NCBI GenBank assembly: GCA_003354055.1
Contig: PIVQ01000435.1
Span: forward strand, 1 to 6,373
Length of the DNA stretch: 6,373 nucleotides
Source: Desulfobacteraceae bacterium
GTDB taxonomy: Bacteria; Desulfobacterota; Desulfobacteria; Desulfobacterales; Desulfobacteraceae
Reading direction: 5' to 3'
Shown here: positions 1 to 6,030 of the stretch, one piece after another
Position numbering within the stretch: the stretch's first letter is position 1
Layout: the number at the start of each line of letters is the position of its first letter
Translations under genes and position numbers: made by a program
The notes under the pieces: model-generated
The model's input: only the letters and a program-made list of their open reading frames with translations
Told to the model about the DNA's origin: nothing
The model's database searches: none

Positions 1-141
1 GCCAGTCGGATAATACACACCTGTTACCCCACCGGTACCGATGGTGACAAAGGTCTGATCCGATGCCTGAACAGGAGCTGTACCAAGAAAAAGAACCATA
101 CCGAATAAAGCTGCAATACTAATAACCAAAAATTTTTTCAT
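1..141 (-). CDS. TAXI-family TRAP transporter solute-binding protein, N-terminal part (truncated by window edge)
   Basis: The minus strand encodes 47 residues starting MKKFLVISIAALFGM. Residues 1-26 form a Sec signal peptide: KK, a hydrophobic core, then a VQA cleavage site before SDQ. The mature protein opens with FVTIGTGGVTGVYYPTG, the signature start of TAXI (TRAP-associated extracytoplasmic immunogenic protein) binding proteins. These periplasmic proteins deliver a substrate to a fused DctQM-type (4TM/12TM) TRAP permease; one structurally studied Thermus member binds glutamate/glutamine, but the substrate here is unknown. The ATG (139-141) is preceded by a strong ribosome site, GGAGGT (plus-strand 146-151), four nt away. 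About 270 residues and probably the permease genes lie beyond position 1. The upstream region carries a full-match sigma-54 promoter, so expression is probably under enhancer-binding activator control. Family assignment is confident, function in detail is not. Confidence 0.88.
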   Translation of the reverse strand, partial: MKKFLVISIAALFGMVLFLGTAPVQASDQTFVTIGTGGVTGVYYPTG

Positions 142-303: not shown

Positions 304-320
304 GATTCTCTGTAACAGAG
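304..320. promoter_or_regulatory. Palindrome CTCTGT-A-ACAGAG overlapping the TAXI promoter -12/start region
   Basis: Positions 308-320 form a 6-bp inverted repeat with a single central base. It covers the -12 element edge (319-320) and the predicted start near 308, a place where a bound protein would block transcription. Positions 304-315 (GATTCTCTGTAA) recur exactly at 437-448. The palindrome is seen directly; an operator role is inferred. Confidence 0.35.
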
Positions 321-334
321 CAAAAGTTGTGCCA
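319..334 (-). promoter_or_regulatory. Sigma-54 (RpoN) -24/-12 promoter for the TAXI transporter gene
   Basis: Read on the minus strand this is TGGCAC-AACTT-TTGCT. The -24 block is TGGCAC (334-329), the spacer is 5 nt and the -12 block is TTGCT (323-319), agreeing with the TGGCAC-N5-TTGCW consensus at every defined base. GG and GC are separated by the required 10 nt. The predicted start is near 308, leaving a leader of roughly 167 nt before the TAXI ATG. Upstream there is an IHF-like site and three repeated palindromic elements, as expected for an enhancer-dependent promoter. A sigma-54 activator is encoded in the facing operon. Confidence 0.85.
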
Positions 335-389: not shown

Positions 390-405
390 TTGATGATATC
401 ATCAA
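390..405. promoter_or_regulatory. 16-bp perfect palindrome, candidate upstream activator site 1
   Basis: TTGATGATATCATCAA reads identically on both strands over all 16 bases. It is centred about 90 bp upstream of the predicted sigma-54 start of the TAXI gene. Two related copies follow at 470-485 and 488-503. Enhancer-binding proteins with Fis-type helix-turn-helix domains bind such dyads at -80 to -200, so this is a good candidate site for the NtrC-family regulator encoded at 4657-6030. That pairing is inferred. Confidence 0.65.
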
Positions 406-469
406 TCTTTAAAAAGCAACCCTGCTATTGAGAACAGATTCTCTGTAAATTAAGGGACATCGGAGCGAT

Positions 470-485
470 TTGACCATTTCATCAA
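470..485. promoter_or_regulatory. Candidate upstream activator site 2
   Basis: TTGACCATTTCATCAA matches the perfect palindrome at 390-405 at 13 of 16 positions. It keeps the outer TTGA/TCAA arms and the whole right half-site TCATCAA. Its centre is about 170 bp upstream of the predicted sigma-54 start, and it begins exactly 80 bp from site 1. Confidence 0.6.
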
Positions 486-487
486 TT

Positions 488-503
488 TTGAGCTTATCAT
501 CAA
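488..503. promoter_or_regulatory. Candidate upstream activator site 3
   Basis: TTGAGCTTATCATCAA also matches the palindrome at 390-405 at 13 of 16 positions, with the same conserved TTGA arm and an ATCATCAA right half. It starts 18 bp after site 2, leaving a 2-bp gap. Two adjacent dimer sites are a common way for NtrC-type activators to build a higher-order oligomer. Confidence 0.6.
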
Positions 504-603
504 CCTGTCAAAAGTAGATCAGAATTAGAGCGGTGCAAAAACCAAATGAAATTTATCGTTTTCCAAAGGATTTGTAAACCAAATTTTTCAGCGGGCTTTT
601 ACC

Positions 604-763: not shown

Positions 764-1906
764 ATGAATCCCAAAATTCAAACATATATAATGGAAAACC
801 GGCAGGGACTTTTTGATCTGCTTGAAGAACTGGTTCTCATCCAGAGCCATTCAAAAAACAAGGCCGGGGTTGACCGGGTGGGAGAACGGCTTGCAATAGA
901 AATGTCAAAAATGGGATTTACCTGTGAATTCTCCAGTCAGGAAATCTTTGGCAACCACCTCATTGCGAGGTCTCCTAAGTTTTCAACTGACAGAAAACAG
1001 ATCCTGATTGTAGGACACATGGATACGGTGTTTCCGGAAGAGACCGGTTTTAATTGGTACAGGGAAGATGAGACACGGTGTTTCGGCCCTGGTGTGGCAG
1101 ACATGAAAGGCGGCCTTGTTGTCGGTATATTTGCACTCAAGGCCCTGATACATGCAGGACAAATCAGGAATAGGCCGATTACCTTTATTTTTAACAGTGA
1201 TGAAGAAATCGGATCCCCGACCTCAAGGGAGTTGATCCGGCAGGAGGCAAAAAAGTCGAGAATAGCCTATGTACTTGAAGCCGGGGGCCTGTCCAATGAG
1301 ATCGTAACCGGGCGAAAAGGAAATTTTTCAGCGCGGGTTTCGATTTTTGGAAAGGCCGGCCACGCCGCATTTGCAGGCAAAGATAAGGCCAGTGCCATTC
1401 TGGAAATGGCACATAAAACCCTTGCCATTGAAGGGCTGAATGCACCTAAGAAAGGTATCTCAGCCAATGTGGGAACCATTCAGGGAGGAATCGGCCCAAA
1501 TACTGTGGCAGATTGTGCAAATGCTGCCATGGATTTCCGATTTCTCACTGATAAAGATGCCGATGACGTCAGAACGCGATTTTCCAGCATCATTGCCGAG
1601 CCGACCATTGCCGGCACCCGGGCTGAAATGAAAATTATTTCCAGCCGGCCGGCCATGCCACAGACCCGGGCTAACCAGGACCTCTTCGCACAGATACAGA
1701 CCCTGGCCAATGATTTGAGCACTCCTGTTGCGGAGGAGTTGCGCCAGGGGGTATCTGATGCCAATATTATTGCAAGCCAGGGAATCCCTGTCATTGACGG
1801 CCTGGGACCTGTTGGAGCCAAAGATCACAGCGAGGATGAATTTATTGAAAAGGCAAGTCTTTGGGAACGGAGCATTCTATTTGGCAATATACTGGCGCAA
1901 ATATGA
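764..1906 (+). CDS. M20 family metallopeptidase, carboxypeptidase G2-like
   Basis: A 380-residue zinc-dependent hydrolase of the M20A group (glutamate carboxypeptidase/ArgE/DapE-like), normal length for the family. It probably cleaves a peptide or N-acyl-amino-acid bond in the cytoplasm, since no signal peptide is present. The metal and catalytic residues are all visible: H85 and D87 in GHMDTV, D113 in GVADMKGG, E147-E148 in NSDEEIGS, E172 in VLEAGG, and H355 in GAKDHSEDEF. The lid/dimerisation domain spans about 182-290 (GKAGHAAF, then NVGTIQGGIGPNTV). The ending DGLGPVGAKDHS resembles carboxypeptidase G2, which releases C-terminal glutamate, but the actual substrate cannot be read from sequence. 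I chose ATG 764; an in-frame GTG at 758 adds two residues, and neither has a strong ribosome site. It is the first gene of the operon, followed 20 nt later by the lipoprotein gene. Confidence 0.9.
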   Translation: MNPKIQTYIMENRQGLFDLLEELVLIQSHSKNKAGVDRVGERLAIEMSKMGFTCEFSSQEIFGNHLIARSPKFSTDRKQILIVGHMDTVFPEETGFNWYREDETRCFGPGVADMKGGLVVGIFALKALIHAGQIRNRPITFIFNSDEEIGSPTSRELIRQEAKKSRIAYVLEAGGLSNEIVTGRKGNFSARVSIFGKAGHAAFAGKDKASAILEMAHKTLAIEGLNAPKKGISANVGTIQGGIGPNTVADCANAAMDFRFLTDKDADDVRTRFSSIIAEPTIAGTRAEMKIISSRPAMPQTRANQDLFAQIQTLANDLSTPVAEELRQGVSDANIIASQGIPVIDGLGPVGAKDHSEDEFIEKASLWERSILFGNILAQI

Positions 1907-1926: not shown

Positions 1927-2796
1927 ATGAAGCCCGGATCCATGGGAGCAAATCTGTGTTCTCTTTTTTTGGGTATATTTTTTTTGGCCTTGCTCGTCCA
2001 AAATATCGGATGTACCGGGCCGCCTGATAATCTTACCACATCTAAAACAGATCTTCCCGTCAAGGTTCAGGATGGTTTTGAGATACCTAAGTTCCCCTCT
2101 GCCGGGGGACAGCTCAACTTTGCCAAATCCGGGTTTACAGATAAAAAGAAAAAAATGGCGGCCTACAGAGCGGTATTGACCCTGTTCCCTGAGGATCGTC
2201 TTGAGTGTGGTCATGCGTCAATTGGGATGGCCTATCTTCACCTGGAACCAGACTATAGGTTTGCAAGCCCCCTTGCAATCCGAAAGGCAGCCAATGATTT
2301 TAAAGCCATTATTGATGATTTTTCAACCCTGCCCGATGTTCTGGCAAAGGCCCACTGGTATCTTGGATGGATATATACAGAGCTTATGAAAACCCCGGAG
2401 AAGGGGCTGGTTCATTATTGGCAGATTGCTGGGCAATTTCCTGATATTCCAATGAATATGTTTCCGCCCGTCCCCTGGGTTAACATAGTCTATCCTTCTG
2501 ACCAGACCCTGAAGGACCAGAAGCCTGCAACCCCACAAAAACTATGGGCCGAGGTTGCCCTTCTGGAGATCGTAAAAAATTGCAAGGACAAATCCCAGAC
2601 AATTAAAGCCTTTGATTTATTATACGACAGATTTTTTTTAAGTCCTGCAACCGGTTTTGCCATAAAGGCCATGCTGGCTGACCCGGAACTTGCCGCCCAT
2701 GCATTTGCCGGCGTTGACCCTTATCTGTCACGCAACACGGACAATCCCTATCTGGCCCGCGACATACGGACATTGGCGGAGGCAATTGCCCCGTGA
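1927..2796 (+). CDS. Putative lipoprotein with TPR-like helical repeats
   Basis: A 289-residue exported protein of unknown function. Residues 10-28 are a hydrophobic signal segment ending QNIGC, so C29 is the likely lipidated cysteine. The lipobox is imperfect because -3 is N rather than L/V/I. Residue +2 is T, not D, which by the E. coli rule favours the outer membrane. A flexible stretch (30-75) precedes amphipathic helices at about 77-107, 113-133, 136-152 and 157-171 (for example AKAHWYLGWIY), typical of TPR-like folds used for protein contacts. I chose ATG 1927 because AAGGAG (1910-1915) precedes it by 11 nt and the signal segment then sits at the N-terminus; an ATG at 1903 overlapping the previous stop is the alternative. 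Its stop overlaps the kinase start by 4 nt (GTGA), suggesting coupled translation and perhaps a partnership with the sensor. Confidence 0.75.
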   Translation: MKPGSMGANLCSLFLGIFFLALLVQNIGCTGPPDNLTTSKTDLPVKVQDGFEIPKFPSAGGQLNFAKSGFTDKKKKMAAYRAVLTLFPEDRLECGHASIGMAYLHLEPDYRFASPLAIRKAANDFKAIIDDFSTLPDVLAKAHWYLGWIYTELMKTPEKGLVHYWQIAGQFPDIPMNMFPPVPWVNIVYPSDQTLKDQKPATPQKLWAEVALLEIVKNCKDKSQTIKAFDLLYDRFFLSPATGFAIKAMLADPELAAHAFAGVDPYLSRNTDNPYLARDIRTLAEAIAP

Positions 2797-4682
2797 GCTT
2801 TTTTCCAACTGCTGCCAAATTCAGACATTCCTTCAGGATCAGAATTTTTCTGGCCCTGACCCTGATCATCATCATCGTTATACCCGGAACCGGTTACTTC
2901 TGCTATCTTCAGGCCACCCGGGTTATTGAGAAACAACTTCAGGAATTTGCTATTGGGTCTGCAAATCAGATATCCAAACGGGTGGAATCCTTTTTGTCCC
3001 ACCACACCTTTAACGTGAAACTGATCAAGTCATTGTTTGAAAACGGCCTGATCGACATGACCGATGATAAACAAATCCTCCAGTATTTTAACTTATTCCA
3101 AAAGGATCACCCGGAATTCTTTAATATTAATTTCGGGGACGAAACCGGCCGATTTTTAATGTCACCGGCACAGGTGCCCGAGGTTCACAAAACATTTGAC
3201 CCCAGAATCCGGCCCTGGTATCAGGGTGCCCTGACCACTCTTGATATTCACTGGACAGATGTCTACTTATTTGCATCTACAAGAAAACCCGGTATGACGG
3301 TTTCCCTGCCCATCTATGATGCCACCCAAAAACTTCAGGCCGTCTGCGGCATTGACATTGATATTTCCTCTTTCTCAAGGTTTCTCAAAGGCATTAAAAT
3401 CGGCACCAGAGGGGTTGCCTATATCTTTGACAACAAGAACGGGCGGATCATTGCCCACCCAGCCCTGGTTCAACAACCCTGGGAATCCTTTCATACGGAT
3501 TTGCTGAGCCATGTTCATAATGATTTGAGTACCCGTAATAAACGCTTTGGCATGTCCCCATTCCAGGGACGCCAGTATTTTACAGCCTATACCGATTATC
3601 CTGGCAATGACTGGACCGTCGGCGTGACCCTGCCGGTCTCGGACCTGTTTGAAAATGTCTTTTCCATCCGGCGGGCCATTATTTCCCTGGTGATTGGGGG
3701 GATACTTCTAGCAAGCCTGCTCTCTTACCTCATTGCCATGACAATTGTCCGTCCCCTGACCCGGCTCAAACAGGGTATTGAACGCATCTCCAGCGGTGAC
3801 CTGGACTATAAGGTTACCATCAGGGATCCGGATATCGCAGCCACCCTTGCCAATTCATTTAACCAGATGGCTGCCTCTCTGAACAAGAGTTCCAAAGAGC
3901 TGATACGGACCTACGGCGAGCTGGCTCAGAATGAAAAACTGGCTGCCGTTGGGCAGATGACCGCAGGCATTGCCCATGAGATCAAAAATCCATTGGGAAT
4001 TATCCAGGGGTCTGCCCAGGTGGTGGCTAATCCTGATCGTCCCATTGAGATGCGGGAAAAAGCGGCCCAATTCATTATGGAAGAAGTGGACCGGCTCAAT
4101 CATACCCTGACCACCTTTCTGGATTTTGCAAAACCTCCCTCGCCAAGAATTAAATCCATTGACATCCGATTGCTTGTGGAAGAGATCACAACGGTTCTCA
4201 AAACCCAGTACCCGGACCATGACTTCAAAATCACCACACCGGGAAAGGTCCCTGAAATTCCGGCTGACAGAGATCAGCTTCACCAGGTGTTCCTTAACCT
4301 TTTCATCAATGCCATCCAGGCCATGCCCCGGGGCGGGATGATTAAGATCTTAATGGATACCCAAACCCGGCAAAATCATGATACTATACCCGATGGTCGG
4401 GAAACCACCCCCATAAAAACACTGATACATCACCTAAAAATTGACATCCTCGACCAGGGATGCGGGATCAGCCAGGACCAGTTACAGGTGATATTTGATC
4501 CTTTTGTCAGCTTCAGAGACGACGGTATCGGGTTAGGTTTACCTGTTGTTTCCCAGATCATCAAGACCCATAAGGGTCAGATGGACATCCTGAGCCTGCC
4601 GGGAAAAGGCACACGGTTTACCCTGATTTTTCCACTTGATCACCAGGAGGACGGCAATGCCGCCACAGATATTACTCATTGA
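2793..4682 (+). CDS. Membrane sensor histidine kinase: dCache, HAMP, HisKA, HATPase_c
   Basis: A 629-residue inner-membrane kinase. TM1 is at about 17-37 and TM2 at about 294-317, enclosing a roughly 255-residue periplasmic dCache-type sensor with the hallmark DPRIRPWYQGA (136-146), a Y/G-rich second strand (158-172) and CGIDID (185-190). HAMP is about 317-370. The HisKA H-box AHEIKNP places the phosphorylated histidine at H395. The ATPase domain shows the N-box (N506), G1 DQGCGI (554-559), F-box DPF (569-571), G2 DGIGLGL (577-583) and GKGT (604-607). The loop before G1 (about 525-545) is longer than usual and polar. The start is GTG 2793, with GGAGG at 2778-2782, overlapping the lipoprotein stop. 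It phosphorylates, most likely, the NtrC-type regulator encoded next, as in AtoSC/ZraSR pairs. The ligand is unknown. Confidence 0.92.
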   Translation: MSFFPTAAKFRHSFRIRIFLALTLIIIIVIPGTGYFCYLQATRVIEKQLQEFAIGSANQISKRVESFLSHHTFNVKLIKSLFENGLIDMTDDKQILQYFNLFQKDHPEFFNINFGDETGRFLMSPAQVPEVHKTFDPRIRPWYQGALTTLDIHWTDVYLFASTRKPGMTVSLPIYDATQKLQAVCGIDIDISSFSRFLKGIKIGTRGVAYIFDNKNGRIIAHPALVQQPWESFHTDLLSHVHNDLSTRNKRFGMSPFQGRQYFTAYTDYPGNDWTVGVTLPVSDLFENVFSIRRAIISLVIGGILLASLLSYLIAMTIVRPLTRLKQGIERISSGDLDYKVTIRDPDIAATLANSFNQMAASLNKSSKELIRTYGELAQNEKLAAVGQMTAGIAHEIKNPLGIIQGSAQVVANPDRPIEMREKAAQFIMEEVDRLNHTLTTFLDFAKPPSPRIKSIDIRLLVEEITTVLKTQYPDHDFKITTPGKVPEIPADRDQLHQVFLNLFINAIQAMPRGGMIKILMDTQTRQNHDTIPDGRETTPIKTLIHHLKIDILDQGCGISQDQLQVIFDPFVSFRDDGIGLGLPVVSQIIKTHKGQMDILSLPGKGTRFTLIFPLDHQEDGNAATDITH

Positions 4683-6030
4683 AGATGAAGACCGGATGCG
4701 CCAGGTCATTGCCATGCAGATATCAGATCTGGATCTGACCATCCATGAGGCAAAGGACGGTGAGCAGGCCCTTGATATTTTTGACAACCAGACCATTCAC
4801 CTTGTGATCACTGACCTGAAACTGCCTAAGGTCAGCGGCATGGAAGTACTGGCCCATGTAAAGGAAAAAGATCCGGATATTCCAGTGATTGTGATCACAG
4901 CTTATGGATCCATTGAGAATGCAGTGAAGGCCATCCGGCAAGGTGCCTACGACTATGTGACCAAGCCCTTTAAGGAGGAGACGCTTAGAGACAGCGTGAA
5001 AAAGGCCATGAAGATCAGCCGGCTTGCCCATGAAGTCCGACATCTGAGGCAGGAAATCGAAGATAAGTTCACCTTTAAAAATATTGTGGGCAACTCCCCG
5101 AAAATCTGTGAAGTGCTGGAACTTGCAGGCTCCGTATCCCATACGGACTCTTCCGTACTCATCACCGGTGAAAGCGGGACGGGAAAGGAGTTGCTCAGCC
5201 GTGCCACGCACATGAACAGTCCCAGATCCTCCGGCCCATTCTCAACGGTAAACTGCGCTGCCATCCCTTCATCACTTCTGGAAGCCGAGCTTTTCGGTTA
5301 TGAAAAAGGTGCCTTTACCGGTGCTCACAAACAGCAGAAGGGAAAATTTGAAATGGCGTCAGGTGGTACTATGTTTCTGGATGAAATCGGGGACATGGAA
5401 CAGGATGTCCAGGCCAAATTCCTGCGTATTCTTGAAACCCAGCAATTTGAGCGCCTTGGGGGAAGTAAAACCATTACAGCCGATGTTAGAATCATTGCCG
5501 CCACCAACAAGGACCTATGGCAGATGGTTCAAGATAAAACTTTCAGGGCAGACCTTTACTACAGGATTAACGTCTTTCCCATCCATATCCCGCCCCTGCG
5601 TGAAAGAAAAGAAGATATCCACCGACTGAGCCTTCATTTTATCAATGAGTTTTCAAAGGCCTTTGGTAAAAAACCCCCTGCCCTTTCCGATCAAGGATTA
5701 AAAAAACTTCTCTCCTATCCCTGGAAGGGAAATATCCGCGAACTGAAAAATGTTCTGGAACGAGCCATGATTCTCTGTACAACAGATATTATCAGCCCGG
5801 ATCATCTTATTCTCAACCCCTATCAGAAAAATTCCCTGGATACCCTGCCCATGGACGAACTCATCCCAATGATGGTGGACAACGGCCTGGAAGACCTTGA
5901 GAACAGATGTATCAGCTATGCCATGGACAAAGAAAAAAACAATGTTTCCAAGGCAGCACGTATCCTTGGTATCTCCAGAGCCACCCTGCGCTATCGACTG
6001 GAAAAGATGGAGAAGAACTTAGCCACCTAA
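4657..6030 (+). CDS. NtrC-family sigma-54-dependent response regulator
   Basis: A 457-residue activator of normal length. The receiver domain (4-120) has the acidic pocket E9-D10, phosphoacceptor D53, T81 and K103. The central AAA+ domain (about 142-370) has Walker A GESGTGKE (171-178), the sigma-54 contact loop GAFTGA (218-223) intact, and Walker B FLDE (240-243). The C-terminus (about 425-455) carries a Fis-type helix-turn-helix, NVSKAARILGISRATLRYRL. With all ATPase and loop motifs intact it should remodel sigma-54 RNA polymerase once phosphorylated. The start is ATG 4657 because AGGAGG (4645-4650) lies 6 nt upstream; the gene then overlaps the kinase by 26 nt. The nearest plausible target is the sigma-54 promoter at 319-334 with its three 16-bp elements. 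It is the last gene of the operon; no clear intrinsic terminator follows it. Confidence 0.95.
   Translation: MPPQILLIEDEDRMRQVIAMQISDLDLTIHEAKDGEQALDIFDNQTIHLVITDLKLPKVSGMEVLAHVKEKDPDIPVIVITAYGSIENAVKAIRQGAYDYVTKPFKEETLRDSVKKAMKISRLAHEVRHLRQEIEDKFTFKNIVGNSPKICEVLELAGSVSHTDSSVLITGESGTGKELLSRATHMNSPRSSGPFSTVNCAAIPSSLLEAELFGYEKGAFTGAHKQQKGKFEMASGGTMFLDEIGDMEQDVQAKFLRILETQQFERLGGSKTITADVRIIAATNKDLWQMVQDKTFRADLYYRINVFPIHIPPLRERKEDIHRLSLHFINEFSKAFGKKPPALSDQGLKKLLSYPWKGNIRELKNVLERAMILCTTDIISPDHLILNPYQKNSLDTLPMDELIPMMVDNGLEDLENRCISYAMDKEKNNVSKAARILGISRATLRYRLEKMEKNLAT

Follow-up and report, generated by a model that had tools for sequence, protein, structure and literature searches.

Three conserved palindromes upstream of a TAXI-TRAP gene: a predicted enhancer for an NtrC-type regulator of Desulfobacterota

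In the window, that is, the whole stretch of 6,373 nt that was analysed, a TAXI-family TRAP transporter gene and the operon of a two-component system are transcribed divergently, and the gap between them contains a sigma-54 promoter together with three copies of a 16-bp element; which protein these copies serve, and which genes they control, is the question raised by this locus. The original prediction was that they constitute a specific recognition sequence, TTGA-N8-TCAA, for the NtrC-type regulator of the operon. The relevant features are as follows.

1–141, minus strand: N-terminal 47 codons of a TAXI-family TRAP solute-binding protein (start at 141; the gene runs off the window)
319–334, minus strand: sigma-54 promoter (−24/−12), TGGCACAACTTTTGCT; zero mismatches, conserved in 12 aligned promoters
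390–405, no strand assigned: site 1, promoter-proximal, TTGATGATATCATCAA; perfect palindrome, centre 63 bp upstream of −24
470–485, no strand assigned: site 2, the nearer of the distal pair, TTGACCATTTCATCAA on the plus strand; 80 bp from site 1
488–503, no strand assigned: site 3, the farther of the distal pair, TTGAGCTTATCATCAA on the plus strand; 18 bp from site 2
548–578, minus strand: TTTACAAA-N6-GAAAACGATARRTTT (TTTACA-N17-TARRTT), a further conserved element upstream of the array
764–1906, plus strand: M20-family peptidase, gene 1 of the divergent operon (PF01546, PF07687)
1927–2796, plus strand: protein with a lipoprotein-like start, family unassigned; its relatives adjoin the kinase in most studied loci
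2793–4682, plus strand: sensor histidine kinase (dCache_1, HAMP, HisKA, HATPase_c)
4657–6030, plus strand: NtrC-type response regulator (PF00072 receiver, PF00158 sigma-54 AAA+, PF02954 Fis-type HTH)

We assign a probability of about 0.87 to the reading that the three palindromes are the UAS of the regulator at 4657–6030, which would act with an amino-acid-sensing kinase to activate the TAXI-TRAP genes as part of a glutamate regulon. The sites, the promoter, their conservation, the co-occurrence with the two-component system and the gene content are established here; we infer that the regulator binds, what its signal and the substrate are, and in which direction control runs.

The palindromes and the promoter in the window

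The regulator, encoded in the operon divergent from the TAXI gene, has all the domains by which the NtrC family is defined, and its translation contains GAFTGA. The TAXI fragment matches TIGR02122 partially and below the cut-off in a profile search because just 47 residues are present in the window. For the M20 peptidase the nearest NCBIfam models, again below cut-off, include glutamate carboxypeptidase; the lipoprotein-like protein, possibly a partner of the sensor kinase, had no match in profile searches against Pfam and NCBIfam.

Four matches to TGGCACN5TTGCW are found in the window at up to two mismatches, and the one at 334–319 is the sole match with none; it is located on the minus strand and points to the TAXI gene (start 141). 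The sigma-54 promoter that had been proposed is therefore a perfect match, but it serves the divergent TAXI-TRAP gene and not the operon of the regulator; the possibility that it drives that operon was rejected because of its direction and because in L002 the kinase operon, about 4.4 kb away from the array, has no site at up to two mismatches in its own upstream gap. The three copies themselves, read directly from the sequence, are where they had been placed: site 1 equals its own reverse complement, sites 2 and 3 both agree with it at 13 of the 16 positions and have TCATCAA in common, and centres at about −90, −170 and −188 hold if the start is taken at about 308. Counted from −24, the centres are 63, 143 and 161 bp upstream, which is an enhancer-type distance and the placement of a UAS.

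A matrix of 20.1 bits was built from 46 sites, all from genomes other than that of the window (among them sites of G052 and G091, in which the kinase was not matched, and one doubtful site of L152); the promoters that supplied these sites had been picked for having a site and a promoter. By this matrix the three sites take the first three ranks in the window, at 25.9, 21.1 and 18.2 bits, and the next-best position reaches 8.9. In 500 dinucleotide shuffles of the window, a score of at least 18 bits was reached anywhere in 2 and one of at least 15 bits in 14; none of the 500 had three positions of at least 15 bits. Chance as the origin of the sites was rejected on the shuffles and the matrix ranking. 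The loose pattern TTGANNNTNTCATCAA, allowing up to three mismatches, has 15 matches in the window where 9.3 are expected, which is not significant alone; the signal is therefore carried by the close (zero-mismatch) copies. Across genomes the consensus of the 46-site matrix is TTGATSAWWTSATCAA, and the inner bases are therefore specific rather than free; TTGA-N8-TCAA, while present in three copies as had been claimed, is too loose a description.

Two further elements of the gap deserve mention. The second conserved element at 548–578 is kept in G051, G087 and G088, in which no regulator was found, and it could therefore be a TAXI promoter of the sigma-70 type, or else the site of another protein. 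Near-tandem 14-bp repeats resembling AGTCAACGACCTT occupy 220–270 (two copies detected by repeat search, a third by eye), in what is presumed to be the leader separating the sigma-54 promoter from the TAXI start.

Conservation of the sites and co-occurrence with the regulator

The first comparison of loci took 12 of 79. Twelve promoters, from the window, from G052 and from ten genomes with the kinase, were picked on the basis of their site and promoter and aligned; all 36 of the 36 invariant columns are in the three sites and the −24/−12 element, while the flanks differ; phylogenetic footprinting, which had been proposed as a check, thus singles out the expected elements. When gapped palindromes were enumerated in 17 promoters, likewise selected with site and promoter in view, TTGAT-N6-ATCAA was found in 14, the maximum in 200 shuffles being 4.

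The half-sites TTGAT and ATCAA are those of FNR boxes, and the palindromes might therefore be bound by a protein of the CRP/FNR family that acts on this promoter independently of the two-component system. FNR boxes usually have a spacer of 4 bp (TTGAT-N4-ATCAA); here, however, it is 6 bp and the inner six bases are constrained, so that the sites differ from an FNR/CRP box. Further, the site follows the kinase/regulator pair across genomes, and no CRP/FNR protein stood out among the gene families of the loci, which are only partly annotated. An FNR/CRP box was rejected on the spacer, the inner constraint and the co-occurrence, and this explanation is very improbable. It may be added that a literature search for the site strings found, in the text available, a single statement, in which the FNR motif is written TTGATnnnnnnATCAA (PMC12309544).

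Presence of the kinase was called at E ≤ 1e-120, a threshold that misses fragmented genes, as G091 showed; in three families of genomes it was found in 13 of 86, 10 of 93 and 2 of 30, respectively. The exact site pattern, any match being accepted, coding included, occurs in 12 of the 13 kinase-bearing versus 19 of the 73 kinase-less genomes of the first family, and in 6 of 10 versus 9 of 83 of the second; in kinase-bearing genomes the coding matches include that of G053, one of those of G054 and the fetched ones of G011 and G012. Three kinase-bearing genomes without the exact pattern (G133, G142 and G006) are uninformative, as their kinase contigs end just upstream of the kinase. The reversed pattern gave no match in the exact-pattern searches, and a scan allowing one mismatch matched 28 of 28 genomes among the matches listed; since that scan is mostly noise and the reversed control is not composition-matched, gene context was relied on.

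Gene context was examined in the 48 exact-pattern loci whose sequence was retrieved. A sigma-54 promoter is located 30–260 bp from the site in 12 of 20 loci of kinase-bearing genomes versus 1 of 28 loci of kinase-less ones, and the site falls within an open frame of at least 150 codons in 19 of these 28 versus 4 of these 20 loci. A looser pattern of site plus promoter matched 23 of 86 genomes of the first family and 8 of 93 of the second. Eleven of the 23 have a site at most one mismatch from TTGATSATWTSATCAA, namely nine kinase-bearing genomes, G052 and G091; among the eight of the second family there was none, as judged by eye.

VcGluP-like TAXI genes were compared in the best 60 loci (30 per search), 56 of which were used after two with less than 60% identity and two with a short upstream stretch had been dropped. 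Among the matches listed, 8 of the 9 kinase-bearing genomes have a site upstream and 8 of 9 a sigma-54 promoter, while in the 47 others a site occurs in 4 and a promoter in 2; both together are found in 8 of 9 versus 2 of 47. The four kinase-less genomes with a site are G091, G052, G088 and G090. G091 encodes the regulator (78% identity) at the end of a contig of 7,991 bases, the kinase therefore presumably being off the contig; if it is counted as regulator-bearing, the site occurs in 9 of 10 versus 3 of 46, again among the matches listed. The regulator was searched for in 12 kinase-less genomes. It was not found in G052 (2.7 Mb), in which site and promoter are present, nor in G088 and G090, in which the site pairs are kept at one mismatch and the −12 element has decayed; in G087 and G051 the decay goes further, and we read these four decayed cases as relics of a lost regulator. 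Conversely, G132 has kinase and regulator and no site upstream of the TAXI gene, and in G008, which has the regulator, the gap between TAXI and kinase genes contains neither site nor promoter.

The co-occurrence with the regulator that had been expected thus holds in most relatives, but not in G132 and G008, where no TAXI site can be recognised; the site is conserved with its presumed activator and absent without it, the exceptions being these two together with G052, G088 and G090. The opposite outcome, a site that is not conserved where the regulator is, was looked for in relatives and did not overturn the prediction. When upstream regions in the retrieved loci of kinase-bearing genomes were chosen by gene, a site at up to one mismatch was present in 11 of 18 TAXI regions versus 19 of 387 regions of other genes; among the latter 19 are genes that face the same gap from the other side, as well as further members of the regulon, and four of the seven TAXI regions without a site belong to diverged paralogues. 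None of the co-occurrence counts is independent, since the genomes are related and many are drafts. In two kinase-less genomes, TTGATCATATGATCAA occurs six times (G036) and four times (G035), and is perhaps a different repeated palindrome.

As several of the genomes are closely related, the similarity might reflect mere shared ancestry of a functionless intergenic region. This is hardly credible: invariant columns are found only in the sites and the −24/−12 element, with variable flanks between them; the same site occurs at other promoters and in other families; and 43 of the 47 VcGluP-like TAXI genes of kinase-less genomes, among the matches listed, are without a site. Mere relatedness was rejected on the pattern of invariant columns and on these kinase-less TAXI genes.

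There remains the identity of the binding protein. With 29 members, the regulator is by far the most recurrent DNA-binding family in the loci. Aligned orthologues hardly vary in its recognition region, NVSKAARxLGLSRATLRYRLEK, as expected if the site is constant. The sites could instead belong to another sigma-54 activator co-inherited with the operon, given that a first look returned 80 to 349 related-protein candidates per genome and that some loci also contain members of two other response-regulator-like families, 9 and 13; these, however, account for only 6 and 4 reading frames, and G091, which was picked by site and promoter with no kinase found, carries the very regulator considered here, which makes another activator quite improbable. 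Conservation and co-occurrence with the kinase/regulator pair therefore favour the palindromes as the candidate recognition sequence of the NtrC-type regulator, as originally proposed.

Targets, transporter and sensor

Besides the TAXI-TRAP genes, sites are found upstream of a crotonase gene followed by that of an ADP-forming CoA ligase (G003, G004 and G005) and of 2-oxoacid:ferredoxin oxidoreductase genes (korAB; G141 and G009); in G009, a gene for NADP-glutamate dehydrogenase is near the site-bearing korAB. In G010 the gap with the sites is flanked by genes for an acyl-CoA ligase and for a glutamate-dehydrogenase-type protein of 1,049 residues, to which a sigma-54-like element points from a distance of about 0.5 kb. 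Sigma-54 or sigma-54-like elements accompany the sites upstream of korA and of the glutamate-dehydrogenase-type gene. With such targets, the regulon would import and oxidise glutamate.

The transporter may fit this assignment. VcGluP of Vibrio cholerae (PDB 8S4J) is a glutamate-specific TAXI binding protein according to the text available of PMC11574862, and the TAXI orthologue of L002 is closest to it (454 bits). In 15 of 19 full-length TAXI rows, nine of the 13 contact positions agree (V44, Y45, Y46, S75, Q93, H123, E125, G156 and G203); in these 15, S40 of VcGluP is replaced by Gly or Ala and D157 by Gln or Tyr, Y200 corresponds to Phe or Tyr, and M201 to Thr, Val or Met. Paralogues from the same loci, with neither these residues nor the site, make up the remaining four rows. 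The window fragment, with its 47 residues, shows V44, Y45 and Y46 only. The contact residues alone do not predict the site, as G008 has the residues without a site.

As to the signal, the sensor of the kinase carries the dCache_1AA motif when positions are mapped by spacing, in the PctA numbering given in the text available of PMC10104139, and not by alignment to PctA: R126, W128, Y144 and D173 are invariant and Y129 is nearly so in 38 sequences. Position 121, Tyr in PctA, is aromatic here (Phe or Tyr, in seven aligned sequences). In contrast to PctA, the stretch from Y144 to D173 is one residue longer, and the domain is part of a kinase rather than of a chemoreceptor. The structure model of the sensor (mean pLDDT 84) has mostly amino-acid chemoreceptors among its best 50 structural matches, including PctA, PctB, PctC, Mlp24, Mlp37, CtaA and Tlp3, and the modelled sensor thus appears to resemble amino-acid dCache domains. 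Taken together, targets, transporter and sensor suggest that an extracellular amino acid turns on the import and oxidation of glutamate; glutamate would, we infer, be both signal and substrate.

The mechanism proposed is as follows. The dCache kinase would sense an extracellular amino acid, with glutamate as the best guess, and phosphorylate the NtrC-type regulator, dimers of which would occupy the three sites and form the AAA+ hexamer; the hexamer would loop to the sigma-54 RNA polymerase at 334–319, and the divergent TAXI-TRAP genes would be switched on. The regulon might then import glutamate and oxidise it via 2-oxoglutarate to succinyl-CoA.

Related systems and the geometry of the array

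In Pseudomonas, AauS/AauR is an RpoN-dependent two-component system of acidic amino-acid utilisation. As far as described in the text available of PMC7962211, it shares with the present system a kinase with an NtrC-type activator, a sigma-54 promoter, upstream palindromes and a glutamate transporter as target; however, the AauR site is TTCGG-N4-CCGAA rather than TTGATSAWWTSATCAA, so that the present sites are not AauR sites, and the transporter is of the ABC type rather than TAXI-TRAP. In its arrangement the system may be said to work like AauSR, and the sites are probably the enhancer of an AauSR-like, glutamate-responsive regulon of Desulfobacterota. For Desulfovibrio vulgaris Hildenborough, 33 motifs of sigma-54 activator regulons have been compared; there too, per the main text of PMC4641369, the gene of the activator is close to a sigma-54 promoter that has sites upstream of it, and most regulons comprise one to four operons, although this organism belongs to the order Desulfovibrionales. 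The words TRAP and TAXI are absent from that main text, to which the comparison extended. A literature search joining TAXI or TRAP with sigma-54 found no such regulon among the results listed, the D. vulgaris studies (PMC4641369, PMC3333781) being considered apart from their figures and supplements. Within the literature searched, the motif is indeed undescribed, as had been claimed; we file it as a newly assigned predicted enhancer motif and regulon in a kind of arrangement that is already known.

The spacing of the sites is conserved in close relatives, where 79–83 bp separate the proximal site from the distal pair and 18 bp the two members of that pair; deviating spacings are seen in G011 (66 and 19 bp) and G012 (19 bp). 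In the G002 family the proximal site is 49–64 bp upstream of −24. In the G010 family the array has two sites, 81–83 bp apart, at offsets from −24 of about 118, 129 or 140 bp for the nearer site and 201, 212 or 222 bp for the farther one. The array thus shifts against the promoter in steps of about one helical turn: offsets cluster at a period of 10.5 bp with R of 0.80 (n = 13), 0.94 (n = 7) and 0.92 (n = 6), and P of 0.0001–0.0022 against uniform placement, for genomes which are related and not independent. Outside the G002 family several −24/−12 elements depart from the consensus at one or two positions (G007, G010 and G009), and these promoters were picked for the periodicity test with correspondingly relaxed matching. 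G210 (L185:6965–6998) has two site palindromes 18 bp apart; downstream of them, a plus-strand sigma-54 match at 7203 precedes an open frame whose start is TAXI-like, and a second match, on the minus strand, is located at 7132.

A speculative and, in our estimation, unlikely extension is that the rigid layout of three palindromes (80 + 18 bp) matches three dimers of one hexamer, such that the DNA would template the hexamer and set the face which it presents to the polymerase; the regulon, one of glutamate catabolism in Desulfobacterota, would otherwise be undescribed. Irrespective of this idea, the helical-turn steps by which the rigid array shifts offer comparative data on the constraints of enhancer geometry.

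In the organisms concerned, sulfate reducers of a group in which such regulons are little known, an orphan NtrC-type regulator gains a candidate DNA motif together with a target set and a signal that can be tested. The prediction is that these bacteria would sense an extracellular amino acid and in response switch on glutamate uptake and oxidation; the relatives with and without the regulator form a natural panel, which makes it easy to test.
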